This document shows, one piece after another, positions 4,285 through 37,110 of a stretch of 39,227 bases of DNA. The stretch's first letter is position 1. Every line of letters starts with the position of its first letter. The notes beneath the pieces were generated by a model. That model was not told where the DNA came from. It made no database searches and saw nothing but the letters and a program-made list of their open reading frames with translations. The stretch is from a virus: the IMG/VR virus record IMGVR_UViG_3300005613_004724, positions 1 through 39,227 of that record; one strand, given 5' to 3'. Made by a program: the position numbers and the translations under genes.

Positions 4285-5563
4285 TTAGTTCTCGTCATAG
4301 GTCAAAGTAAATGTAAAGGTATTGGTGTCTCCTGCTTCTGCCGCAGTAGTTGTTCTCAACTGCAAAACCATAAAATCAGAATAACCTGCTCCAGTAATAT
4401 TACCCGCAAGGTCGCCACCAAAAGATACATTCGCTGAACCCGGTGCAGATGTTGGAACATCTGCTGATGCATAAGAGCTATCTCCAGTTACAGGATCATG
4501 AAAAGCAGTCGTATGCCCAACAAATTTAATTGCTTCTCCTGCTCCTAAAGCACCTGCTGATTTATGAAACTTTGCATTTTGAACCTTATTAAATGTTCCA
4601 GTATAATGACCTTTTAACCAGACATCGTAAGAATTATTACCTGCTGTAATTGGATACGAAGTGTAATCCGATGCATCAGCTAATGAATTACTTGTCTTGA
4701 AGTTAAAAAGGTTTCCAGAAACACCTAAATCACCAGTCGTCGGAGAACCAGTCGCTCCATACTCACCCCACCATTGAACACTTTTGTTACTATTCTCTTG
4801 TGAGAATGGCTAGGATATTTCTACCTAGCTCTGTATGTTACCATACAGGTCGGACTATACTTTCATCCAGATTTTCTGGAGCCTCCCCTCTAGTCTCTGC
4901 ACCTTCCTTTTCAGGCTTGGCTCAGGATTGTCCTCTGGCTATTTTTATTGAGGAGTTTCCCTGAATTTGAGAGGTTTCTTTATATCTGTTGCCAGATATA
5001 CAACACTACTTGTTGTTTCCTTACCTTATTGATTTAACTTCTTAATTTTATTAAAGATTTTTTCAAGTTTTTTATCTACTTCTTCTAAATTATAATTACT
5101 TAATCTATGATTTTTAATAATCTCAAGAGCTTCCTTTAGTAATTTTCCTTGTTCTTTTTTAGTAATAAGAAATTCTAAAAGAATATCTGAAATTTTTCTT
5201 ATAAGATTAGAATTTGCATTCCATTGATAAATCAATTTTTTGCTTTTAAAACTGCCTTTGTTAATTCTACCTTTACTAACATAACCGCCAATTTCTTTTT
5301 TAATAAATTCAAGTATTTTTTTATCTGTATTTGTTATAGTAATTCTTGGATACCACGTAAAACCTCTTTTACATTTAAGGTCTTTATGTTTTAAAAGCAA
5401 TATAGACCCATCTGAATCTATAACTCCCGCAAGATAAGCAAAAAACTCTCTTTTAATCATCCTATTTTATATTATAGGATATAAAATCAAGAAAATCAAT
5501 ATTTTAAAGTGCTAACAGACTAAAAAGGTGTAAGGATACAACATTTCTTAATGTTGCAGCCAT
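4285..5563 (-). CDS. Intron-split structural-type protein (exons 5563-~5530 and ~4790-4285)
   Basis: Exon 1 starts at ATG 5563 behind AGGAG and reads MAATLRNVV before running into intron sequence; unspliced, it stops after 19 codons. Exon 2 ends at TAA 4285-4287 and encodes about 167 residues, beginning near NKSVQWWGEYGATG and ending TFTFTLTYDEN. It is rich in G, T, S and N with beta character, typical of small virion or tail proteins; the family is not recognised. The coding frame of exon 2 is open only up to the end of a group I intron core. Exact splice points could not be fixed by eye. Confidence 0.75.
5026..5460 (-). CDS. LAGLIDADG homing endonuclease in the group I intron
   Basis: 144 residues, single-motif length. 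The motif is YLAGVIDSDGS near residue 9, with the acidic residue typical of LAGLIDADG catalysis. A second diagnostic stretch (YPRITITNTDKKILEFIKK) matches the beta-alpha part of the fold. One motif implies that it works as a homodimer, cutting intronless copies of the host gene. It lies in the 5' part of the intron, ahead of the whole catalytic core. It has its own sigma70-type promoter, and the start codon is inside a hairpin. Confidence 0.9.
   Translation of the reverse strand: MIKREFFAYLAGVIDSDGSILLLKHKDLKCKRGFTWYPRITITNTDKKILEFIKKEIGGYVSKGRINKGSFKSKKLIYQWNANSNLIRKISDILLEFLITKKEQGKLLKEALEIIKNHRLSNYNLEEVDKKLEKIFNKIKKLNQ
5459..5499 (-). promoter_or_regulatory. Promoter and start-masking hairpin of the intron endonuclease
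   Basis: -35 TTGATT (5499-5494), 17-bp spacer, -10 TATAAT (5476-5471), then 10 bases to the ATG. ATCCTAT (5480-5474) pairs with ATAGGAT (5465-5459), leaving an 8-base loop; the -10 box spans the loop and the top of the 5' arm. The 3' arm contains AGG and the first two bases of the start codon, so a read-through transcript would hide the start. A transcript from this promoter would begin within a few bases of the ATG. Confidence 0.7.
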
Positions 5564-8499: not shown

Positions 8500-9342
8500 C
8501 TAATAATTATATTTGTCAAATATTAACTGTTTGAATTTTTTTGTCCAACTTTCTCGATTAAAATTTACTTTACCATTACATTTTCTACATAAAGTAACTA
8601 AATTATATTCTACACAATTCTGTTTATTATAGTCAATATGATGTATATGTAAATATTTTTTGCTTCTACATAACTGACAAGTATAATCATCTCTTTTCTT
8701 AATTTTCTCTTTTAATTCTTTATTAAATTCAAATGGATAAGGTTCATTAGATATTCCACCTTTCCAGTTAGGAGCTAAATCCTTTCTTTTTCCATACATA
8801 GCATTATTTTTACCACTTGAATTTTTGCTTCTAATTCTTTTCATTTTCTTGGTATTATTTGCTTTAATCATTTTTGCTTTATATTCTGGATTTTGCCATT
8901 TCTTTTTAATGGCTTCACGTACTTTTTCAATATGTTCTTTACTTTTAGGTTTACCTTTGAGAGCTTTAGATATTTTCTTTCGTACATCAGGTCGTTTATT
9001 GGCTTCAGATAATTTTCGTCTCATTTCTATTGCCCATTCTTTATTGTTCCAATACTTCTTTGAATTTTTGCTAATCTTCTTTTTATGCTTCTCGCTCAAT
9101 TTTGTACCTAAATGAACTTTTCTCATATTTTCTCTATTTTTAGGATCTTCAAAATATTTTTTTCTAGCATCGCTCATCTTCTTCTTAGATTCTTCTGAAT
9201 GTTTCTCTCCTTTGAAAAACCCCATCATTCCAATAAAAAACCTACCTTTAGAATTTCTTCTATCAGTAGGTTTTTCGTCTTTTACTAATTTCTGTTTTTT
9301 CTTACTTTTAACTGCCTTGTAGTTATTATCTAGGTTTATCAT
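8500..9342 (-). CDS. HNH homing endonuclease with NUMOD3 repeats, 280 aa
   Basis: N-terminal half carries several NUMOD3-type motifs (GEKHSEESKKKMSDARKK, GTKLSEKHKKKISKNSKK, KGKPKSKEHIEKVREAI), used for DNA contact in GIY-YIG and HNH homing enzymes. The C-terminal domain has YTCQLC, LHIHHIDYNKQN and NLVTLCRKCN, the two CxxC pairs and HH of an HNH nuclease. It is free-standing, inserted between the capsid gene and the zinc-finger gene. No ribosome site; the start lies at the end of a hairpin and just behind a sigma70-type promoter. Confidence 0.92.
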   Translation of the reverse strand: MINLDNNYKAVKSKKKQKLVKDEKPTDRRNSKGRFFIGMMGFFKGEKHSEESKKKMSDARKKYFEDPKNRENMRKVHLGTKLSEKHKKKISKNSKKYWNNKEWAIEMRRKLSEANKRPDVRKKISKALKGKPKSKEHIEKVREAIKKKWQNPEYKAKMIKANNTKKMKRIRSKNSSGKNNAMYGKRKDLAPNWKGGISNEPYPFEFNKELKEKIKKRDDYTCQLCRSKKYLHIHHIDYNKQNCVEYNLVTLCRKCNGKVNFNRESWTKKFKQLIFDKYNY

Positions 9343-13483: not shown

Positions 13484-13679
13484 TTTCTTTAATAAACTTA
13501 CTTAATGTTTTAAGAATATTATTTAATCTATTTTTTTGAGGTATCCACTCTAAATTACTTGGGAAAGAACGACTGGCAGTATCTAAAAATCCATAAATTA
13601 ACTTAACTTCCTCCATTCCAACAGCGAATAAAATCCTTTTTTTATCTGAACCTGCTATTTCTTCTTTATAGATTTTCAT
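13461..13679 (-). CDS. Hypothetical protein, 72 aa
   Basis: MKIYKEEIAGSDKKRILFAVG..., mixed charged and hydrophobic, no Cys and no membrane segment. Starts at ATG 13679 with an ATGA overlap of the GT2 stop upstream, so it is probably translated with it. The pattern VGMEEVKLIYGFLDTASRSFP is not one I can assign. Confidence 0.55.
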   Translation of the reverse strand: MKIYKEEIAGSDKKRILFAVGMEEVKLIYGFLDTASRSFPSNLEWIPQKNRLNNILKTLSKFIKENENINSV

Positions 13680-14395
13680 TTTTTACTTACATCTCTTGCT
13701 AAATTCTGAATATGTTTTCTAAATTGTTTTGTTGATTTAGGATATTCTCCTCCCATCGGATTTCGTTGTCCTACATTTGAACCCGTCCACCAATACTCAG
13801 TTATTACTTTAGGAACATGAACTATCTTTTTACCTGCCTTTCCAAATCTAACCATTAAAAGCCAATCAGCTTTTCTTTCCCAGAATATATCGAAAAAACC
13901 AATATCATTAATAGCTTGAATTGTATGCATAATATCGGAAGTATCAATATAATTACCTTGATTTATTTGCTCTAAAATATAAGGGAAACTTTGTTTTCCC
14001 ATAAATCTTGTTTCATTGGGATTATTACTTTTATAAACTCTATCTCCATATACAATATCAGCTTTGCTATTTTTTATTGCTTCATAAAGCACTTCTAAAT
14101 GATTAGGCAAATAAACATTGTCATCATCAAGATGGGCAATGTATTTACCTCTAGCAACCATAATGCCTATATTTCTAGGTCTAACAAAATAACCAGTATT
14201 ATAAGGCAACCGCATAGCCACAACTCTATCTTCACCATTTGGTAATTTTATATTAGGTGGTTTATCTGAATGGTCATCTACAATAATAACCTCAAAATCT
14301 TTAAAAGTTTGCCCTAAAACGCTATCTAACGCTCTTTGTAAAAGTTTTGGTCTATTATATGTTGTAATAATACAAGATATTTTAGGATTGTCCAT
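13676..14395 (-). CDS. Glycosyltransferase family 2, 239 aa
   Basis: Start set at ATG 14395 because MDNPKISCIITTYNRPKLL is the typical GT2 N-terminus; a longer frame to 14470 lies inside the HNH gene. Motifs: FEVIIVDDHSD, RGKYIAHLDDDNVYLPNHLE (metal-binding DDD), and a later FWERKADWLLMVRFGK that corresponds to the acidic acceptor region. The HNH gene upstream overlaps the start by 14 bases and seems inserted at this gene's 5' end. No clear ribosome site. Confidence 0.9.
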   Translation of the reverse strand: MDNPKISCIITTYNRPKLLQRALDSVLGQTFKDFEVIIVDDHSDKPPNIKLPNGEDRVVAMRLPYNTGYFVRPRNIGIMVARGKYIAHLDDDNVYLPNHLEVLYEAIKNSKADIVYGDRVYKSNNPNETRFMGKQSFPYILEQINQGNYIDTSDIMHTIQAINDIGFFDIFWERKADWLLMVRFGKAGKKIVHVPKVITEYWWTGSNVGQRNPMGGEYPKSTKQFRKHIQNLARDVSKK

Positions 14396-14960
14396 GATTG
14401 TTTTTTGTATATTTATTGCCATAAAATCTGAAAGTAGTTTTATGACATTTTTTACATAATGTTCTTCCATTGCTTACTTCAAATCTTAATTTTGGATACA
14501 AAGCCCATGGTTTAATATGGTCTGCTTCTAAATCTCCACCCCGTTGACCACAAAACTGACATGTATAATTATCTCTTTCAAAGACTTTTTTTCTCCATAA
14601 TTTATATTCTGGTGTATTTAACATTCTAGGAGTAATTCCACCTTTCCAATTCCAATGTTTTTTTCCACTTATTTGTGGAAATTTTTTACCTTTATTCCAA
14701 GAAGTATTTCCTTTAATGAATCCTCGCTTATTATTAATCATTTCTGGTCTTTTTTTACCTAACCAATACTTAGTTGGATTTTTTAGTTTTGCTTGACGTA
14801 ACTTTTCTTTATGTTCATCGCTAAGATTACCCCCTTTTTTGAATTTACCATTTTTATCCATATTATATATTTCTTTTACGCTAATTATTGGTTTTATTAA
14901 CCTATCCTTTAAAGGTTTATTTATTGGTGTTATATCTGATAATATTTTATCTAAATTCAT
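14382..14960 (-). CDS. HNH homing endonuclease with NUMOD3-like region, 192 aa
   Basis: NUMOD3-like segments (KFKKGGNLSDEHKEKLRQA, GKKRPEMINNKRGFIKGN) precede an HNH domain with YTCQFCGQRGG, LEADHIKPW and GRTLCKKCH. Such enzymes nick or cut intron- or endonuclease-free copies of the locus. ATG 14960 gives the longest frame; an inner ATG (MDKNGKFKKGGN, near 14861) also makes a complete domain set. Unlike the other four homing ORFs, it lacks the TTGATW-N17-TATAAT promoter. It lies between a structured-RNA candidate and a GT2 gene. Confidence 0.88.
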   Translation of the reverse strand: MNLDKILSDITPINKPLKDRLIKPIISVKEIYNMDKNGKFKKGGNLSDEHKEKLRQAKLKNPTKYWLGKKRPEMINNKRGFIKGNTSWNKGKKFPQISGKKHWNWKGGITPRMLNTPEYKLWRKKVFERDNYTCQFCGQRGGDLEADHIKPWALYPKLRFEVSNGRTLCKKCHKTTFRFYGNKYTKNNHGQS

Positions 14961-14982
14961 AGTTTTTTAAATCCCTGTTTGT

Positions 14983-15318
14983 TTATTTAATATTCACTTC
15001 AGGGGAGGCAGATTTACACTGCATTTTTGCGGAATTGCCAGCCTCCGCTTTATTAGTCCCTTTGGCATTAGGGCTTTCATCGGTAAGACCTACTCCCCTG
15101 AAGTAAATACTAATCCACTTGTTAATAAACTTATAATGACTTCTATCACCAGAATAACTTAAAAAGGGCTTTTTATAGTTAACAGGACCTCTATTACTTA
15201 CATATCTTTTATATTCATAATATTTATCAATCGTTCCAAACTTAGGATAATAAGTGCCAAAGTCTTTAGTATTAATAATTTTTTTGATAGTTCGTTTTAT
15301 CTTATGTAGTTTTCCCAT
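14983..15318 (-). CDS. Hypothetical protein, 111 aa, with RNA-like 3' end
   Basis: The first 70 residues (MGKLHKIKRTIKKIINTKDF... then Y-, K- and F-rich sequence) look like an ordinary basic protein. The last 40 residues are encoded by a GC-richer palindromic block and have a different make-up (S, A, N, G, C). The gene may therefore have been altered by insertion of that block, with a TAA just beyond it. No clear ribosome site; no family recognised. Confidence 0.5.
   Translation of the reverse strand: MGKLHKIKRTIKKIINTKDFGTYYPKFGTIDKYYEYKRYVSNRGPVNYKKPFLSYSGDRSHYKFINKWISIYFRGVGLTDESPNAKGTNKAEAGNSAKMQCKSASPEVNIK
14991..15109 (-). ncRNA. Candidate structured RNA, 119 nt, unclassified
   Basis: A 17-bp closing helix joins 15109-15093 to 15007-14991, with 16 Watson-Crick pairs and one G-U. 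Inside are three hairpins: CCCT/AGGG (15073-15070, 15061-15058), GCGGA/TCCGC (15048-15044, 15033-15029) and GCAG/CTGC (15022-15019, 15011-15008). TGCCA in the first loop (15067-15063) is complementary to TGGCA in the second (15040-15036), giving a possible kissing contact. The block is clearly GC-richer than its surroundings. No known class was recognised. It could instead be a small inverted-repeat insertion. Confidence 0.55.
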
Positions 15319-15349: not shown

Positions 15350-15880
15350 TCATAAAAACCTAAAATTAGTATCTTTGGGTAATTTTAATATATTTTCCAT
15401 AGCCTGTACTAGACCATTCCCTTTGGGTCCAGACGGATAATTCTGTATGTGACCATGAGCATATAAAATTTTTAAAGGTGGTGGTGAATCTTTTATATTC
15501 CAATTAAATTTGATTCCCTCTCTTGAGTCGTTTGGATGAAGCATTATTTTATATCCTAACCTTTTTAATCTTTTATACATTTTATCTGATAATTGCCAGT
15601 AAGGAGCTCTATAAACTTTTGAAAATGAATAATCAAGCCGAGCAGTTTCTAATTCTTTTTTAGTTACTTCTTCATTGTTTAAATGCTTGCTTCCATGAAA
15701 ACATAAGTTTATCCATTTAATATTATTTATGTAATAGAAGAAACCATTACTTGATAAACTAAAAGAAGCAAATAAGTTTACTTTAAAATTAGAAAATTCA
15801 TTTTTAAGCATCCACAACCAATCTAACCTATTATTTTGTTCACTAAAGTCATCAAAATCCAAGAATACTATTTCATTCAT
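15350..15880 (-). CDS. Polysaccharide deacetylase-like protein, 176 aa
   Basis: Short member of the NodB/CE4 fold. Motif 1 is FLDFDDFSEQN at residues 6-16 (metal and base aspartates), motif 2 HGSKH at 62-66 (two metal-binding His), and motif 3 RAPYW at 91-95. A late YAHGHIQNYP segment supplies the last His. The family removes acetyl groups from glycans such as GlcNAc polymers, and DUF2334-type relatives are also possible. Its stop-start overlap with the methyltransferase upstream is ATGA, placing it in the sugar operon. No signal peptide, so it would act in the cytoplasm. Confidence 0.72.
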   Translation of the reverse strand: MNEIVFLDFDDFSEQNNRLDWLWMLKNEFSNFKVNLFASFSLSSNGFFYYINNIKWINLCFHGSKHLNNEEVTKKELETARLDYSFSKVYRAPYWQLSDKMYKRLKRLGYKIMLHPNDSREGIKFNWNIKDSPPPLKILYAHGHIQNYPSGPKGNGLVQAMENILKLPKDTNFRFL

Positions 15881-17499
15881 TTTGGCTTTCTTACCATTGC
15901 TGATGTTAATATTTTACTAAATAAAGCTGATTTACCGAACTCAAAACCTACTTCATCTAATATTTTTTTCATTGCTGTATGAGAGATTCTCCAATAATCA
16001 TCATATCCGCTAGTTCCATGATAAGGATAATAAAAGGGACAATCTATAATCAAAAATCCACCCGATTTTAACAATCTAAAACATTCTTTGATAGCTGCTC
16101 TAAAATCAAAAATATGTTCTAATGTTTGACTTAAAATAATTAAATCCCATTTCTTGGCTGGTAATTTAGTATCGCAGTTGTGAATTACTATTCCATCAGC
16201 AATATAACTATTATCTTCTTCAATCTCAAAATTATAAACATCTTTTTTCTCTCCGTATTCTATTTTTTTAACTGGATGAGCATAATATCCTTTAAATTTT
16301 TTTACTTGCATGGTTTGTGTGCTTTGGGAACCAAGACTTTTCCACTGACCTAATTCTTTTTTAGCACTCTCTTTGTATATTTCTGCCTCCCTGAGAAATC
16401 GTTTTGATTCACTAGGAGAGAGTATTACTCTCCATTGAGGCTTTGCCTTATATGTTTTTCCATTTTTATGTTTAAAATCATAAATTGGCCCTTCATTTTT
16501 TATATATCCCATCCTTGCATTAAATCCACAATCTCTATATAATTGCCAAATCCCAAAAGAAATTTTCTTTGATATACTACTAGTAATTATTCCGCTTTTA
16601 TCACAACATCCATCTCCAGAAATATATCCTTCTAAAAAATTAATTTTCTGTTTTCTAGGAAAACCGAATACCATCCACGGTATTTGCTTATTTTCCTTTA
16701 TTCCACTTTCTTTTCTGAAAAATTCTACCCATTGAGGGGAACCAAAATAGACAATTCCTACACTTCCCTCAAGGTCTTTATGTTCTCTGTAACTGGGTTT
16801 ATATCCTATACTTTTAATTATCTTCATTATTCTTTTTCTTTGTTTCTTTTCCTTTATGTTCATTGAGAAACTTACTTGATGGCCACCATGCGTTCCTTCT
16901 GCAGTATAATATCCATACATCCAAGCCATGTTTTGTGAAACTTTCTCTATTTTAAATTCTCGCTTTGCTAAAGAGGCAACAATAGAACCCCATTTACGTG
17001 CCTTGCTAGGAACGAGTTCACTTACTTTTTCCCAGTTCCAATCTGATGTGAAAACAAGACTGTTATTATTATTATACTCACGAATACTAGATAAAACTGG
17101 GTGATTATCTGTAATTTCTAAAATAGGCAAGTTGGCAACCTTTAGTTTAATAGTTTCATTTTTTCTTTTGAAGACCCTTTTTACTGTTTTGAATCTTCCT
17201 TTATGAGTAACAACTTTATTGCCTTTTTTTATTTCAGAAGCATATTTCCATCCATGATTTGTTAAAATAAGTGTATCTCCAGCAACACAAATATCAGCTA
17301 CAATGTCAGGATTAACTCTTTCTAGAATGTCTAGAGTTTTATAATCATTTCCTACTCCAAAATATTTATAATTCCCCCCTGGTTTTGGGTCTCCATCAAT
17401 TCCAACTTCTAAAACCTTCCAACCCCTATTTTCAGGTTTTAATTTCCTTTTATAATGCTCCATTGTTTTCCAAACTGTTTCACGCATTTCACTAGCCAT
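15877..17499 (-). CDS. SAM methyltransferase interrupted by an intein, 540 aa precursor
   Basis: Start at ATG 17499: AAGGAG lies eight bases upstream and the ATG overlaps the epimerase stop. A longer in-frame start at 17535 is less likely. The host protein is about 169 residues: RGWKVLEVGIDGDPKPGG (SAM loop), NPDIVADI-C-DTKLP (acidic motif, split by the intein), KKWDLIILSQTLEHI and LLKSGGFLIIDCP. This is a class I methyltransferase of the kind common in sugar clusters. The intein occupies residues 71-441 and must splice for the SAM fold to close. The substrate is probably a sugar or glycan end. Confidence 0.9.
   Translation of the reverse strand: MASEMRETVWKTMEHYKRKLKPENRGWKVLEVGIDGDPKPGGNYKYFGVGNDYKTLDILERVNPDIVADICVAGDTLILTNHGWKYASEIKKGNKVVTHKGRFKTVKRVFKRKNETIKLKVANLPILEITDNHPVLSSIREYNNNNSLVFTSDWNWEKVSELVPSKARKWGSIVASLAKREFKIEKVSQNMAWMYGYYTAEGTHGGHQVSFSMNIKEKKQRKRIMKIIKSIGYKPSYREHKDLEGSVGIVYFGSPQWVEFFRKESGIKENKQIPWMVFGFPRKQKINFLEGYISGDGCCDKSGIITSSISKKISFGIWQLYRDCGFNARMGYIKNEGPIYDFKHKNGKTYKAKPQWRVILSPSESKRFLREAEIYKESAKKELGQWKSLGSQSTQTMQVKKFKGYYAHPVKKIEYGEKKDVYNFEIEEDNSYIADGIVIHNCDTKLPAKKWDLIILSQTLEHIFDFRAAIKECFRLLKSGGFLIIDCPFYYPYHGTSGYDDYWRISHTAMKKILDEVGFEFGKSALFSKILTSAMVRKPK
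16177..17289 (-). mobile_element. Intein with LAGLIDADG endonuclease, 371 aa
   Basis: Starts at Cys71 (block A CVAGDTLILTNHGW), with block B LEITDNHPVLSS (TxxH-type). The C-terminal blocks are VYNFEIEEDNSYIADGIV and then IHN followed by the extein Cys. Two endonuclease motifs, MYGYYTAEG and LEGYISGDG, lie about 95 residues apart with acidic catalytic residues, so the homing function may be intact. All residues for standard splicing are present (Cys1, the block B His, His-Asn end, Cys+1). Removal joins ...VADI to CDTKLP. Confidence 0.93.
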
Positions 17500-18385
17500 T
17501 ATCGAACTCCTTATAATTTTTTCTATACCATTCAATCGTTTTTTTCATTCCATCATCAAAACTAACTCGTCGACGAAACTTTAATAATTGACAAACAGGT
17601 GCAGGATTAGCCAATGTTACTGAAACTTCTGGTTCTCCTTTTCTCATTTTTTGATGAATAATTTTAGATTTACTACCAGCTAATTCAATAATTCGTTCTG
17701 CTACCTCATTAACTGTTATAGGTATTCCTGTTCCTCCATCAATAGATTTTCCCCAACAAGTTCCCATTTCATACATTCTAATTAACATTTCAGAAATATC
17801 ATCAGTATGAACCAAGTCTACAACTTGATTTCCAGAACCATTGATAATTAAAGGCTTATTTTCTAGAGCTAAAGTAATAAAGGTAGGAGCAATTTTTCTA
17901 ACCTTTTTCCAATGTTGTCTTGGTCCATATCCATTAAGTGCTTTTAAAACAGCTACTTTCATATTAAATTCTTTAGCATACATTAAACAAAACTTATCTG
18001 CTGCTCTTTTAGTTATTGTATAAGGATTAAGCCATCTATTGGTGAGACCAAGATAAATCATTGGTGTTTTAAACTTCTTTACTGCTTCTAATGTATTTAT
18101 CGTCCCTTTAATATTAACATCAACTGTTTTTTGTATATGGCTAAAGGTTTCAGCAGTTCCTAGAATTCCAGAACAATCAAAAATTATACTAGGTTTAAAA
18201 AGTTTAATGGCTGTTTCCAAAGATAAATAATTTAATATATCACCTTGAAAAAATGTTCCCTTAAAAATAAACCCATCAGGTTTTTTAATATCAAAGACAG
18301 ATACTTGATAATTTCTCTTTTCTAGAATTTCTACTAAATTGCCCCCGATAAAACCGCTTCCTCCAAGAACAAGTGCTTTTTTCAT
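17492..18385 (-). CDS. NAD-dependent epimerase/dehydratase (extended SDR), 297 aa
   Basis: The start MKKALVLGGSGFIGGNLVEI has the GxxGxxG NAD(P) loop. The active-site YTITK gives the Tyr-x-x-x-Lys pair near residue 137, and NGYGPRQ and VVDLVHTDDISEML match the later extended-SDR signatures. It would act on a nucleotide sugar (epimerase, dehydratase or reductase). AGGAGG lies five bases before the ATG. The next gene starts within its stop. Exact substrate not predictable. Confidence 0.92.
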   Translation of the reverse strand: MKKALVLGGSGFIGGNLVEILEKRNYQVSVFDIKKPDGFIFKGTFFQGDILNYLSLETAIKLFKPSIIFDCSGILGTAETFSHIQKTVDVNIKGTINTLEAVKKFKTPMIYLGLTNRWLNPYTITKRAADKFCLMYAKEFNMKVAVLKALNGYGPRQHWKKVRKIAPTFITLALENKPLIINGSGNQVVDLVHTDDISEMLIRMYEMGTCWGKSIDGGTGIPITVNEVAERIIELAGSKSKIIHQKMRKGEPEVSVTLANPAPVCQLLKFRRRVSFDDGMKKTIEWYRKNYKEFDNG

Positions 18386-21245: not shown

Positions 21246-21966
21246 AATTATCTCCTTTCGCCATTTTTTGGCCTGTTTTTAATAAATATTTTTTATATAA
21301 ACCCCAAGGATTTATATTTTCTTTTTTAATCCATTTTCTGAAATAAAGCTCTCTTAATTCTTTTAATCTTAAGTCCATATGATGAGCCTCACTGTCTTTA
21401 GCTTCAGGTATCATTCTCCATTTCTTTGTTGATGCAATCCAAAAAGTTACCCCCTTTTTAGCCAATTTTCTTTCCCACCACCAATCATCAATAAAAACAG
21501 ATGGAATTTCTCTTAAATCAATATCAATTGTATGTTTTCTTGAACTTAGGCAAATGTTAGTACAAAGATAGTCTATTTTCATTGGTTCATTGATACTATG
21601 TGAACGAAATCCTGTTGCAGTATAATAAGTATCGCCTGTAAAGTTTTTACCCATTATTCCTACAATTCTATCTTTCTTATAACATTTTAATAAATCTTTT
21701 ACCAATCCTTTTTCAACAATAAAATCATCACCACTTTGAATAATTAAGTCATTCTTAGCAAGATGAGCTAAAAGGGTTCGCCATCTTGAATTTAGATTTT
21801 TACTTGAACTAATAACAATTACTCCTTTTAAATCAGTTTTATATTTTCCTGAATTATCCCAAACTAAAACTTGGTCAACTTCATCTTGAGCCAACCAAGC
21901 CTCTAAAACCTCTCTAAAACGTCTTTCTCTTTTCCAAAAAATAGTACAAACGGTTACTTTTTGCAT
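21232..21966 (-). CDS. Glycosyltransferase, GT2/GT64-like, 244 aa
   Basis: MQKVTVCTIFWKRERRFREV begins a GT-A fold. LIIQSGDDFIVEKGLV holds the metal-binding DD pair, and FIDDWWWERKLAKKG the second acidic motif seen in exostosin C-terminal-type enzymes. SRWRTLLAHL resembles the acceptor helix. Overlaps the transketolase subunit upstream by 13 bases. Confidence 0.78.
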   Translation of the reverse strand: MQKVTVCTIFWKRERRFREVLEAWLAQDEVDQVLVWDNSGKYKTDLKGVIVISSSKNLNSRWRTLLAHLAKNDLIIQSGDDFIVEKGLVKDLLKCYKKDRIVGIMGKNFTGDTYYTATGFRSHSINEPMKIDYLCTNICLSSRKHTIDIDLREIPSVFIDDWWWERKLAKKGVTFWIASTKKWRMIPEAKDSEAHHMDLRLKELRELYFRKWIKKENINPWGLYKKYLLKTGQKMAKGDNYVKS

Positions 21967-22457
21967 CTTCTTAAATTAAGATAAACAGGGTTATTATTAT
22001 TTATTATTTCTTCCATTATGCTTGATATTTGTTCTTTTTTACTAGGCCAAAAACATTCAATATTAGGAATTAATTTAGGTATAAAAATATCTTCTTCTGC
22101 CCAATGCGAAAATCCATCATGTTTATAATCTTTATTACGACCACTACCAATTAGCTTTACTGGTATTTTTTCATGATTAAGATAATTTCTAATTGTTTCA
22201 AAAGGTCTATAAAGTAGAAAAGGAGTAATTGAATAGCAAAAAGGAATTTTGTTTTCTAAAGCCAATCCCACACTTATTCCTATCATGCTTTGTTCAGCAG
22301 CACCAGCATTTATTGTTCTTTTAGGAAAGTCTTTAAAATGACTGTCAAATACTTTATATCCCAAGTCACCCACTATTAGCCAGATATTTTTGTTCTTTTT
22401 CATTTGATAATAAAGTTCATAAGCAAACCAACCCCGCATACTATCGTGTTTTTTCAT
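21954..22457 (-). CDS. Transketolase-like subunit, pyrimidine-binding domain, 167 aa
   Basis: Covers only the Pyr domain. RTINAGAAEQSMIGISVGLA carries the Glu that activates thiamine diphosphate. FCYSITPFLLYRPFETIRN and KHDGFSHWAEEDI match the active-site loops, the latter with the conserved H-D-G-x-S-H. The C-terminal transketolase domain is absent. AAGGAGG is three bases from the ATG. It pairs with the gene directly upstream (22441-23049) as a two-subunit enzyme. In sugar clusters such pairs are thought to transfer two-carbon units in building unusual sugars; that use is inference. Confidence 0.88.
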   Translation of the reverse strand: MKKHDSMRGWFAYELYYQMKKNKNIWLIVGDLGYKVFDSHFKDFPKRTINAGAAEQSMIGISVGLALENKIPFCYSITPFLLYRPFETIRNYLNHEKIPVKLIGSGRNKDYKHDGFSHWAEEDIFIPKLIPNIECFWPSKKEQISSIMEEIINNNNPVYLNLRRCKK

Positions 22458-23049
22458 AGTCCTCCTTTGTCATTTTATAGTAGTGAGCGTCTAATCCTTT
22501 TAAAAAAGGATACTGTTCTGTTTTAGTTATAATTACTTTAACTGGAAATTCAAAGGCTTTTATTCTTTTGACAAGATAAGAAATATTAACTTTGTCATAA
22601 GCAGCCCAACCATTTATATTTAAGTAAATCTTTAAGTTATTTAATCTTTGTTCTTTAGCAATTCTTAAACTTTCCCAGATAGAGCCTTCTGCACACTCAC
22701 CATCAGATATTAAACAATAAACATTCCTGTTTCTATCAGATAAAGCCATTCCTAAAGCAATTGGCAATCCTTGACCTAAACTGCCGGTTGAACACCAAAT
22801 ACCATTAGGCATATCACGATTAGGGTGAGTTCCATGTTTTAACCATATTTCTTCAGCATTACCAAATCCATACTGTTCTAAAACCGCATATAAAGCTAAA
22901 CCAGCGTGTCCATTTGATAAAATAAAAGGCTCTTGGTCTTTCTTTTTCTTATAGATTTTGTCAATAATATTAACTGAGGTAATACAGCTTCCAATATGAG
23001 TTAACCCATGTTTATAAGATATATCAAGAATTCTTTTTTTTAAGTTCAT
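22441..23049 (-). CDS. Transketolase-like subunit, TPP-binding domain, 202 aa
   Basis: Contains PFILSNGHAGLALYAVLEQY (active-site H), GSLGQGLPIALGMAL and LISDGECAEGSIWESLRIA, the G/S-D-G-E...x-N thiamine-diphosphate and Mg site; YLNINGWAAYD supplies the Asn. It is shorter than the usual N-terminal domain (about 270 residues) at the start. Overlaps its partner subunit by 17 bases and the epimerase upstream by 26. Confidence 0.9.
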   Translation of the reverse strand: MNLKKRILDISYKHGLTHIGSCITSVNIIDKIYKKKKDQEPFILSNGHAGLALYAVLEQYGFGNAEEIWLKHGTHPNRDMPNGIWCSTGSLGQGLPIALGMALSDRNRNVYCLISDGECAEGSIWESLRIAKEQRLNNLKIYLNINGWAAYDKVNISYLVKRIKAFEFPVKVIITKTEQYPFLKGLDAHYYKMTKEDYEKTR

Positions 23050-23860
23050 AATTAACCATTTCCTTGATAGATTGTTCTAGTGTTTTAGTTTGCTTCCAAC
23101 CTAAAGATTTCAGTTTACTATTATCGGCCATCCAGAATTTACTATCATAATCACGCATACTTTTAACTAATTCAAAACTTGCCTTTTTACCAGTTACTCT
23201 TTCAACTATATCTAAAACCTCTTTATTTGTATATTGTTTTCCACAGCCTAAATGAAACACTTCACCATTATATTTTTCAATATTTTTAAGAACTAGAATT
23301 ACTCCTTTGCATAAATCAACTACATTGATATAATCATGGACGGGTTCTGGTACAAACTTCATTTTTTCACCATAAAGACAGCTTCTAATCAAAGTTGGTA
23401 TTAAATGGCAATCTTGTTCACCAATGCCCATTATTGAAAACGGTCTTACAATTGCCACATTATAGAATTTAGAAAAATGTCTAGTAAGTTGAGTTCCACA
23501 AGCCTTAGTTATACCATAAAGCGTTTCTGGTCTAGCAACCATTTCTTCATGCATTGGCTCTTTTTTTGTTCCCAATTCATAAGAAGAACTAAAATAAATG
23601 AAGTTTTTTACGCCCGCTTTTCTTGCAGCTTCTAAAACATTAAAAGTATAAATTACATTTACTCTAAATGTTTTTTCATCGCCTTCCTGAAAGCTGAAAT
23701 TGCCATATACAGCAGTATGGATAACTGTATCTATATTTTTGAAGTATTTAATTAACGAAGTTTTGCTTTTAAGTAATCCTCTTGGTATTGGCTTCAATGG
23801 CAATAGTTTTGCTAAATTTGTAGCAACAAAACCATGTGAGCCGCTTATGGCTACTTTCAT
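23024..23860 (-). CDS. NAD-dependent epimerase/dehydratase (extended SDR), 278 aa
   Basis: MKVAISGSHGFVATNLAKLL has the NAD loop in the form G-x-x-G-F-x-x. YFSSSYELG and YGITKACG give the Ser and Tyr-x-x-x-Lys catalytic residues, and HDYINVVDLCKGVILVL matches the family. It is the second such enzyme in the locus and probably acts on a different intermediate. Joined to the transporter stop by ATGA. Confidence 0.92.
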   Translation of the reverse strand: MKVAISGSHGFVATNLAKLLPLKPIPRGLLKSKTSLIKYFKNIDTVIHTAVYGNFSFQEGDEKTFRVNVIYTFNVLEAARKAGVKNFIYFSSSYELGTKKEPMHEEMVARPETLYGITKACGTQLTRHFSKFYNVAIVRPFSIMGIGEQDCHLIPTLIRSCLYGEKMKFVPEPVHDYINVVDLCKGVILVLKNIEKYNGEVFHLGCGKQYTNKEVLDIVERVTGKKASFELVKSMRDYDSKFWMADNSKLKSLGWKQTKTLEQSIKEMVNYELKKKNS

Positions 23861-25023
23861 TTTTTATTAGATAAGTAAATAAATACTCCACTAATTATAG
23901 CACCTAATACCCAAAAATAGAAAGCGTAAGTCCAGCTATAAGAATCAATTAACCAACCAGATATTACACCAGTCAAAGACGCTCCTAGATATCCTAAAGC
24001 ATCAATGACCCCCGTAATAGAAGCTGTATTTTTTCTATTACCAAATATCATTGGTAATTGAGAAACAAGCAAGCTATGAGGTCCAAAGGTAGTAAATCCA
24101 ATAATAGCTAATAGTATAAGTCCTATAACCCAACTATTAACATTGGCAAATAGTATTGCTGATATAGCTAAAATTACTGTCATAATTAAACCAATAAGCA
24201 TTTTTTTACCTTCAAATAATTTATCTGTTAACCAACCAATAGTTAAAGCTCCCAATGCTCCTGCTACTGGAAAAACTAATGCTTTATATGTTGCTGTAGT
24301 AATTTGAGCACCTTGAGTTTCGAAAAAGTAAGTTGGAGCCCATCCTAGAAATCCATACCTTACTATATTTAACCCAAATAGTCCCATACCAGCAAGTAAA
24401 ACTCTTTTATCTTTTAAAACATCAATTAATGTTTCTTTAAGATTTACTTTATCTTCTTTACCTTCTGGATTTTCTTTTGCTTTAAGCACCCATAAAAACA
24501 AAACTGGTAAAGCTAATAATGCTGGGGCATAAAATACATATCTCCAACCAAATTTAGCCATATATCCTGCAAATAACCAACTTAAAGCTCCTCCAAAAAT
24601 GTAAGAAGTTCCTAGTATTCCTGCAACTCTTCCTTTAAGATTATCAGAAGTCCAAGAAGAAACTATTTTAACATTGGGTGACCAACCCATTGATTGAAAT
24701 ACACCATTCAATCCCCAAAGAACAGTTAATAATCCAACTATCATAGCTACAGAAGGAATAAATAGGCTTATTAAAATTGTTCCTATTAATCCAAGAGCAG
24801 CTAATTTTTTGGCTCCTAAGTTATCTGCTAATTGACCATTAACAAACTGACCAATAGCATACATCATAAAAAAGGCACTGGCAGCACCCCCTAACGCTGT
24901 TTTAGTCAAGTTAAATTCTTGCATAATACCAGGTAATGCTATTGAAAAATTAACTCTTAAGAAATAGAAAATAGCATAACCTATCCATGACAAAGTAAGA
25001 ACTTTTTTTAATTTATTTTTCAT
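23857..25023 (-). CDS. MFS transporter, OPA (organophosphate) type, 388 aa
   Basis: About twelve hydrophobic segments. The N-half has YFLRVNFSIALPGIMQEFNL and GQLADNLGAKKLA (the MFS loop 2-3 signature), then GLNGVFQSMGWSPNVKIVSS, close to the Q-x-M-G-W-P-P region of GlpT/UhpT organophosphate:phosphate antiporters. The start has AAGGAGG five bases upstream. It would sit in the host inner membrane. It follows a glycerol-3-phosphate-type cytidylyltransferase, so glycerol phosphate or a sugar phosphate is a likely cargo. A full-length transporter is rare in a virus. Confidence 0.88.
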   Translation of the reverse strand: MKNKLKKVLTLSWIGYAIFYFLRVNFSIALPGIMQEFNLTKTALGGAASAFFMMYAIGQFVNGQLADNLGAKKLAALGLIGTILISLFIPSVAMIVGLLTVLWGLNGVFQSMGWSPNVKIVSSWTSDNLKGRVAGILGTSYIFGGALSWLFAGYMAKFGWRYVFYAPALLALPVLFLWVLKAKENPEGKEDKVNLKETLIDVLKDKRVLLAGMGLFGLNIVRYGFLGWAPTYFFETQGAQITTATYKALVFPVAGALGALTIGWLTDKLFEGKKMLIGLIMTVILAISAILFANVNSWVIGLILLAIIGFTTFGPHSLLVSQLPMIFGNRKNTASITGVIDALGYLGASLTGVISGWLIDSYSWTYAFYFWVLGAIISGVFIYLSNKK

Positions 25024-32339: not shown

Positions 32340-32663
32340 TTACTCTATAGGTAAATGGGCATTAGGATCATTAACAGCATCAACCATTCTCCTAAAAAAT
32401 TTATCATAGGGTTCTGCTTTTATTATATTTTTTACTTCTTTCTTTTCCTTTTTTGTTGGTAATTCTTTTTTAATATTAATAACTGTACCCGTAAATCTTT
32501 CTGGATCAACTTTTACATTGTCTGGTATCAATCCTTTTACAAAATCAGGAGAACTTCTTTTAACTTCAACTTGACTAGCAATACAGAAGAATTTACCATT
32601 TATAAATATTTGAGTCGGTGTTTTTAATGTAATGTCTATTTTACCTCCAATTTTTTGTTCCAA
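32340..32663 (-). CDS. Hypothetical protein, about 99-107 aa, uncertain start
   Basis: A TTG at 32663 gives 107 residues but has no ribosome site. GGAGG at about 32651-32647 is four bases ahead of an in-frame ATA (32639), which overlaps the endonuclease stop as ATAG; this would give 99 residues beginning (M)DITLKTPTQIFINGK. The first 50 residues are beta-rich (TPTQIFINGKFFCIASQVEV), the rest basic with a helical end (YDKFFRRMVDAVNDP). No family recognised. The inserted LAGLIDADG gene may have replaced its original start region. Confidence 0.55.
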   Translation of the reverse strand: MEQKIGGKIDITLKTPTQIFINGKFFCIASQVEVKRSSPDFVKGLIPDNVKVDPERFTGTVINIKKELPTKKEKKEVKNIIKAEPYDKFFRRMVDAVNDPNAHLPIE

Positions 32664-33382
32664 GCAATATGTCCCTTTTTAAACTCAGTTTTTGGTGAAT
32701 AATGTTTTCCTTTATGAAATTCTTTAATATCTATTTTATTTCTCAATAATTTTTCTATCTTTATCAATTTATTATATTTTCTTTGAAGATATATTTCCTT
32801 TTTGTTCTTATACATCCATCTTGGAAAATCCAATCCTGTAATTCGTAGTATATAAGCAGTTTTATATGCATTATGGGATACTTTTTGTGACTTGAATCCC
32901 GTTTCTATCAATTTGTTCCTTAATGTCTTTAAAAAAGATTTACTTCCGCTACAAAAACTTGTCATTAAACTTCCTGCATATTTAGGATTATAATAATTTC
33001 TTCTATGAACAAAGCATCCGTCTCCTTCAAAATAACCTCTAATAAAATCCTGAAGATATTCAGAAGGAACTTCAGGAAATGTCATTGTTTTTGATTTTCT
33101 AGGAGTTAATCCTAATTTAAGTAATGCACTAAATAATTGTTTATTTCTAAGTGAAAATCTATATGAATATCCTTTTTTTATTTTTCTTTTAAGAATTTTA
33201 TTATCAGCATTTAACAACTTTTTTAAAGTTTCAACAATTTCTTTATCTTTTAGTTCTAAATGGAACGAACCACTATTAATTAAATATCCATCAGCATACA
33301 TCCATCCTAATATCCAAACCATTGATTTCGACCAATTATTGAAAAATCTGACATTGAGATTTTTATTAAAGCCATGTTTCAT
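32636..33382 (-). CDS. Two-motif LAGLIDADG homing endonuclease, 248 aa
   Basis: Motif 1 MVWILGWMYADGYL near residue 21 and motif 2 LQDFIRGYFEGDGCF near residue 109 each end with an acidic residue, so this is a monomeric two-motif enzyme. SGSFHLELKDKEIVETLKK and SFCSGSKSFLKTLRNKL are the matching repeat parts. The C-terminal KGKHYSPKTEFKKGHIAWNK is NUMOD-like and basic. Free-standing; its last codons contain the ribosome site of the next gene. Preceded by its own sigma70-type promoter; no ribosome site. Confidence 0.92.
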   Translation of the reverse strand: MKHGFNKNLNVRFFNNWSKSMVWILGWMYADGYLINSGSFHLELKDKEIVETLKKLLNADNKILKRKIKKGYSYRFSLRNKQLFSALLKLGLTPRKSKTMTFPEVPSEYLQDFIRGYFEGDGCFVHRRNYYNPKYAGSLMTSFCSGSKSFLKTLRNKLIETGFKSQKVSHNAYKTAYILRITGLDFPRWMYKNKKEIYLQRKYNKLIKIEKLLRNKIDIKEFHKGKHYSPKTEFKKGHIAWNKKLEVK

Positions 33383-36420: not shown

Positions 36421-37110
36421 TTATGCCTCCTCTCTTAAAATTTTATTAGCTATTTCCTTTTTCCTTTTTAGAAAATAACTACTATCTTTATAAATAAGTT
36501 TTAATAATTTTTTTATTTGAACCCTTCCTGTTAATTGATAACTTAATTTTCCATTTTTATGTTTAATTAAACTACCCACATCTATACCAGTTCTATTCTT
36601 TATCTCTGTAATTAGTTTTTCTTGTCCAAAAACGCTAAATCTATAAATTTTTTCTTTTTTACTATAATAAATACCAATATGTCCATCAGCATCAAATAAT
36701 CCAAGAAAAAATTGCCAAAAATAATTATCAGGAATAATTTTTTCATCTATATTATTAGCTTTTCTTGGTCTTATACCCCTTTTGATTAAATCATCATAAA
36801 GTCTTTTACTTGCAATCTGTAAACTAGCTACTTTTTCTCGTGAATACTTAACATAATCTGTTGAGTACCCAAGAAGATTAGCCAATGTTTTTAAATGATA
36901 GTCATCTTTCTTTTTTAATGCCATGCTAAAATGTTTAGATTTAAAATTGCCATATCTTCCAATACTTCCATCTCCAGCTATAAAACCAAGCCAATATGCT
37001 TGACCTGGACCCATTCCTGAAAAATAACCATTATAAGCTCCCCATCCTGGATAATTCCTTTTAAACTTATGCCCTTTTATAAATTGACCTTTTTCATTTC
37101 TGTTCTTCAT
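36421..37110 (-). CDS. Two-motif LAGLIDADG homing endonuclease, 229 aa
   Basis: A NUMOD-like start (RNEKGQFIKGHKFKRNYPG) leads to motif 1 AYWLGFIAGDGSIG near residue 38 and motif 2 FWQFFLGLFDADGHIG near residue 131, both with acidic residues at the catalytic position. A monomeric enzyme. Free-standing and inserted just upstream of the small Cys-rich gene. No ribosome site; a sigma70-type promoter ends six bases before its ATG. Confidence 0.92.
   Translation of the reverse strand: MKNRNEKGQFIKGHKFKRNYPGWGAYNGYFSGMGPGQAYWLGFIAGDGSIGRYGNFKSKHFSMALKKKDDYHLKTLANLLGYSTDYVKYSREKVASLQIASKRLYDDLIKRGIRPRKANNIDEKIIPDNYFWQFFLGLFDADGHIGIYYSKKEKIYRFSVFGQEKLITEIKNRTGIDVGSLIKHKNGKLSYQLTGRVQIKKLLKLIYKDSSYFLKRKKEIANKILREEA

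Follow-up and report, generated by a model that had tools for sequence, protein, structure and literature searches.

Near the end of a small gene, a virus record of 39,227 bases and 30% GC (the window, meaning the whole stretch of DNA that was analysed) carries a palindromic block with a real, well-formed and unusual structure. The block is a singleton and is probably a palindromic insert. The more specific reading, that it is foreign, about 117–127 bp long, similar to MITEs or Rickettsia palindromic elements and read in frame as roughly the 39 final codons of the gene, is the best explanation available, held tentatively and at somewhat less than an even chance. We infer the foreign origin, the insertion and the mobility from a palindrome, an excess of stability, a jump in GC content and an open frame that are themselves seen directly. 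The block does not yet amount to evidence for a new class of RNA, and neither an RNA nor an insertion is proven.

The block and its predicted fold

The block occurs once in the record and consists of an inverted repeat with two 21-nt arms that enclose 85 nt, giving 127 bp overall. Its elements, all on the minus strand, are as follows.

15093–15113, minus strand: 5' arm of the closing helix P1, UUAGUAUUUACUUCAGGGGAG
15082–15090, minus strand: weak hairpin GGUCUUACC, an alternative to the extension of P1
15055–15075, minus strand: hairpin P2, AGCCC[UAAUGCCAAA]GGGACU, core pair probability 0.96–0.98
15063–15067, minus strand: UGCCA in the P2 loop, proposed kissing partner
15029–15048, minus strand: hairpin P3, GCGGAG[GCUGGCAA]UUCCGC, pair probability 0.95–0.99
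15036–15040, minus strand: UGGCA in the P3 loop, proposed kissing partner
15008–15022, minus strand: weak hairpin GCAG..CUGC, an alternative to the extension of P1
14987–15007, minus strand: 3' arm of P1, CUCCCCUGAAGUGAAUAUUAA

As DNA the arms are 90% complementary. In minus-strand RNA both mismatches become G-U pairs, and the closing helix is continuous over 20–21 bp, so that the closing stem reported in an earlier note on this DNA is present but longer than the 17 bp given there. The predicted fold energy is −51.8 kcal/mol for the minus strand versus −42.1 kcal/mol for the plus strand, with z-scores against shuffled sequences of −5.3 and −4.5, respectively. According to these predictions it is the minus strand, which is sense for the small gene, that folds best. 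For neither strand did any of 200 shuffles fold as well, in agreement with the earlier description of the block as compact and structured. In a GC-weighted inverted-repeat scan of the whole window, the block was the best hit with a score of 28 (minus strand), and the maximum in 200 shuffles of the whole window was 24. The abrupt change in composition is also confirmed, with a GC content of 0.454 in the block and of 0.21 and 0.25 in the flanks. The outermost 8–9 bp of the closing helix are AT-rich, as is the DNA of this phage.

The short hairpins that had been proposed inside the closing stem fared unevenly. P2 and P3 are robust, with probabilities of 0.95–0.99, whereas GGUCUUACC and GCAG..CUGC compete with the extension of P1 (about 0.6 for the extension versus 0.37 for GCAG..CUGC). 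The matching pentamers TGCCA and TGGCA do lie in the loops of P2 and P3, and such a match was equalled in 0.6% of shuffled-loop trials (p about 0.006); the kissing interaction itself is proposed.

The block lies inside one open reading frame and upstream of another.

14983–15318, minus strand: small ORF of 111 amino acids, whose final ~39 codons are the block
14382–14960, minus strand: HNH endonuclease ORF, downstream of the block

The predicted reading frame of the small ORF remains open across the block, which supplies about 39 final codons where 40 had been counted before. The distance from the block to the annotated HNH start codon, an ATG at 14960, is 30 nt rather than 31.

Genome setting and searches for relatives

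The window derives from a tailed phage, since it encodes a major head protein and a head maturation protease. Nearly all of its genes are on the minus strand, and glycosyltransferases and methyltransferases are numerous. The sugar genes include a transketolase-like enzyme (21954–23049, minus strand), encoded by two adjacent ORFs for the pyrimidine-binding and TPP-binding halves, and a major facilitator superfamily transporter (23857–25023, minus strand; 170 bits) lies within the sugar-gene cluster. The genome is rich in mobile elements, with five endonuclease ORFs, an intein and a group I intron.

8500–9342 and 14382–14960: HNH ORFs
5026–5460, 32636–33382 and 36421–37110: LAGLIDADG ORFs
15877–17535, minus strand: methyltransferase ORF containing an intein with splicing and LAGLIDADG domains
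4831–5024, minus strand: catalytic core of a group I intron (Rfam RF00028, 88.5 bits), with the LAGLIDADG ORF 5026–5460

A separate observation concerns the starts of the homing-endonuclease genes. Most such genes in this phage group, HNH and LAGLIDADG alike, have a TATAAT-like box that lies 9–19 nt ahead of the ATG and is often accompanied, about 17 nt further up, by a TTGA-like element of the −35 type. The TATAAT-like −10 box sits inside a hairpin that terminates on the start codon. This arrangement is found at the start codons at 9342, 5460 and 37110 of the window (minus strand) and, among relatives, at L004 5143, L007 6664, L008 10571, L011 1741, L014 1960 and L015 4669. At that position, TATAAT occurs in 0 of 25 other genes of the window. 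By analogy, the device looks like a T4-type control in which promoter and hairpin are merged, possibly giving near-leaderless transcripts.

For comparison of the locus, 32 related IMG/VR loci were retrieved with the head protein. The homologous site in relatives is flanked by a gene like that at 15350–15880 and a glycosyltransferase like that at 13676–14470. Between these two conserved neighbours L011, L016 and L019 have nothing, and other relatives have other small genes, methyltransferases or other endonucleases. The locus is thus a variable-cargo site. Looking for genomes without the block at this position, as had been suggested, gave no clean empty site, because the relatives examined lack the entire small gene.

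The block matched no Rfam family above the gathering threshold or above chance with lax filters and E-values up to 10, and the matches at E 2.6–8.7 are chance; the earlier statement that it belongs to no familiar class therefore holds. Negative Rfam results need caution here, as the group I intron was overlooked by the fast whole-window scan and detected only with lax filters. A group I intron, tRNA or tmRNA at the block itself is excluded. A covariance model built from the block found no convincing match in 50 virus records, relatives of the phage included, so that the covariance search recommended earlier, run on Rfam and these 50 records, yielded neither a family nor a convincing homologue. 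One match of 16 bits, in L176, was dismissed as chance; it lies in an open coding frame, and its second hairpin is broken.

Searches at the level of sequence were likewise negative at the sensitivity reached. Pattern searches of IMG/VR and GTDB that required both loop sequences returned nothing. Ten IMG/VR matches to the arm pattern CTTCAGGGGAG..CTCCCCTGAAG are unrelated, being GC-rich palindromes with other interiors on contigs of 66–73% GC. Phage and plasmid sequences, searched with the block as DNA and as peptide, contained no relative of it, and the plasmid matches at E 4 are chance. Among 17 whole records of the phage group there was no convincing copy of the block or of the small gene; for the latter, a single weak match (21%) was seen. 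Peptide patterns drawn from the block-encoded tail and from the small gene gave no match either.

A candidate palindromic insert

Several features argue for an insert. The inverted repeat is strong and is the only one of its kind in the window, and 45% GC stands in surroundings of 21–25%. The frame is open, and there is a possible direct repeat:

15106–15109, minus strand: TATT, left copy of the possible repeat of 4 bp (weak)
14989–14992, minus strand: TATT, right copy of the same possible repeat (weak)

The two copies are spaced 117 nt apart, exactly 39 codons, although the repeat is just 4 bp long and lies in AT-rich DNA. In addition, the locus takes variable cargo in relatives, and the genome holds many mobile elements. 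The suggestion in the earlier note that the block had been inserted is thus plausible and fits the composition, but no homologue was found.

MITEs are shorter than 500 bp, have terminal repeats of 4–30 bp, are transcribed into stable stem-loops and are able to form in-frame fusions (PMC10969869). Rickettsia elements of ~150 bp often form such fusions (PMC10969869). Like the MITEs QMITE, Correia and RUP, the block is short, with inverted-repeat ends of ~20 bp and a stable predicted stem-loop transcript; its 21-nt terminal arms span 127 bp, and it contains no transposase gene. It differs from them in having no second copy, parent transposase or firm target-site duplication. With the Rickettsia palindromic elements it shares a size of ~100–150 bp, a palindromic build and in-frame read-through inside an ORF, here the predicted frame 14983–15318. 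Those elements form many-copy families, whereas the block is a phage-borne single copy that is GC-richer than its surroundings. The likeness in build to both groups is clear, and from its sequence the block is a candidate member only.

Under the insertion model, palindromic DNA from elsewhere would have entered a small accessory gene of the phage close to its 3' end, mobilised in trans by an enzyme encoded elsewhere. The inserted block would now be translated in frame as the last ~39 codons of that gene, and its mRNA would fold into a long helix with two hairpins on top whose loops match.

Some observations count against this model. Elements of the MITE and Rickettsia type are normally multicopy, and the block has one copy in the record and none in the 17 phage-group records, in phages, in plasmids or, by the loop pattern, in IMG/VR and GTDB. 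MITEs are typically AT-rich (PMC10969869) and the block is GC-rich. The outer 8–9 bp of its helix have the AT-rich composition of the phage. Pfam scans of the main genes of the window revealed no transposase, and no empty site was present among the relatives examined.

Alternative readings

The block might instead act in cis, as an mRNA structure governing the HNH endonuclease gene downstream, a reading that we regard as rather doubtful. Two short sequences would be involved.

15000–15004, minus strand: CCCUG in the 3' arm of P1, predicted alternative partner of the ribosome-binding site (RBS)
14973–14977, minus strand: CAGGG, RBS-like sequence of the HNH ORF, predicted to pair with 15000–15004 when the 5' arm is absent

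A switch built from them would leave the RBS free when P1 is formed. Removal of the 5' arm, by ribosomes on the small gene or in a shorter transcript, would let CCCUG pair with the RBS and turn the gene off. In folding predictions the first RBS bases are unpaired with a probability of 0.88–0.93 in the presence of the 5' arm and of 0.00–0.02 without it. The two mismatches of the helix also become G-U pairs in the mRNA. Precedent comes from T4-like phages, which use RBS hairpins on homing endonucleases (PMC2988022). A parallel is offered by seg43(25) of Aeromonas phage 25, where a very stable hairpin lies immediately upstream of a free RBS (PMC2988022).

Like the T4-type hairpins of I-TevI, segB, mobE and seg43(25), the block is predicted to be very stable and lies directly in front of a free-standing endonuclease gene and its RBS. 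It is, however, much larger and branched, has a loop-loop match, lies within the upstream ORF and does not cover the RBS directly; the RBS is mostly free when P1 forms and is covered in the alternative fold only. The arm is matched equally well by 2 of 40 RBSs in the window, so that the pairing has a probability of about 5% by chance. In relatives the HNH genes have no block of this kind and use small AT-rich start-codon hairpins instead.

The true start of the HNH gene may also lie elsewhere, possibly at 14861. The first ~25 codons of the annotated ORF (14886–14960, minus strand) are similar to the beginning of a small zinc-ribbon gene in relatives (L033 4922–4996), with 68% identity, which gives the ORF the look of a fusion formed at a recombination joint. 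Because the annotated ATG at 14960 lies in the leader shared with the zinc-ribbon gene, the HNH unit proper possibly starts further down, and we infer that the endonuclease itself may begin at 14861.

It is unlikely that the block is an independent structured RNA of an undescribed class, such as a ribozyme, a riboswitch-like aptamer or a trans-acting RNA, built on a three-way junction whose hairpin loops kiss. The fold z-score of −5.3, the loop match (p 0.006), the occurrence of the mismatches as G-U instead of A-C on one strand and the lack of an Rfam class would all suit such an RNA. Against it, IMG/VR and GTDB hold no homologue that keeps both loop sequences, the covariance model finds none in the 50 virus records, and the block lies within an open reading frame. 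Nothing in the analysis favours a ribozyme in particular. In kissing-loop three-way junction RNAs, for example the purine riboswitch, two hairpin loops pair above a closing helix. The likeness of the block to these is architectural only, with no sequence similarity and no Rfam match.

We consider it quite unlikely that the block is a chance by-product of illegitimate recombination, in which a GC-rich scrap without mobility or function became attached to the small gene. Its singleton status would fit, as would the adjoining HNH ORF, itself fused to the leader of another gene. The 3' flank, too, has 19 nt in common with a gene end in L004: window positions 14956–14974 are identical to L004 5077–5095 (GGATTTAAAAAACTATGA..), shortly ahead of the following start codon and behind genes that are unrelated to each other. 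Against this reading, the enclosing 20-bp helix beats 200 of 200 shuffled windows, which is not expected of a random scrap.

A solo omega-RNA (reRNA) scaffold from a tnpB 3' end was a striking candidate, because the peptide seemed like a TnpB tail and tnpB 3' ends double as omega-RNA. The sense frame of the block is GVGLTDESPNAKGTNKAEAGN, and we took its GLTDESPNAKG...AEAGN to resemble the tail of ISDra2 TnpB. About 90 TnpB 3' ends were compared, and a profile was built from about 20 of them. With this nucleotide profile the block obtains no score, whereas held-out TnpB tails score as high as 40 bits. Aligned with the roughly 90 tails, as nucleotides or as peptide, the block does no better at its best than shuffled versions of it (175 of 300 and 176 of 1000 as good, respectively). 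The block shares with IS200/IS605 TnpB omega-RNA an ORF 3' end predicted to be a structured RNA and a superficially similar peptide tail, but it lacks a guide junction and the conserved terminal hairpin with a TTCA-type end, and there is no TnpB in the window and none that is convincing in close relatives. The omega-RNA is already refuted for the TnpB types sampled, and overall it is extremely improbable. A retron is rejected, as the Pfam-scanned genes of the window include no reverse transcriptase, and a translational bypass from a GGA take-off site to a GGA landing site in another frame, which can be drawn up from the sequence, is likewise set aside.

That the block founds a new class of phage structured RNA, whose three-way junction and kissing-loop pair at a gene's 3' end would serve as a homing-endonuclease switch or as an independent RNA, is in our view quite unlikely. 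The TATAAT start-codon hairpins and the group I intron may be worth more than the block, and the hairpin device may merit a study of its own. With the block a singleton, neither of its two possible meanings is established yet. Were the block an insert, it would exemplify a palindromic mobile element that lengthens a phage protein in frame; new protein ends that arise in this way have been described chiefly in Rickettsia. Were it a regulator, a branched, switch-like structure would be added to the hairpin control already known for homing endonucleases of phages.
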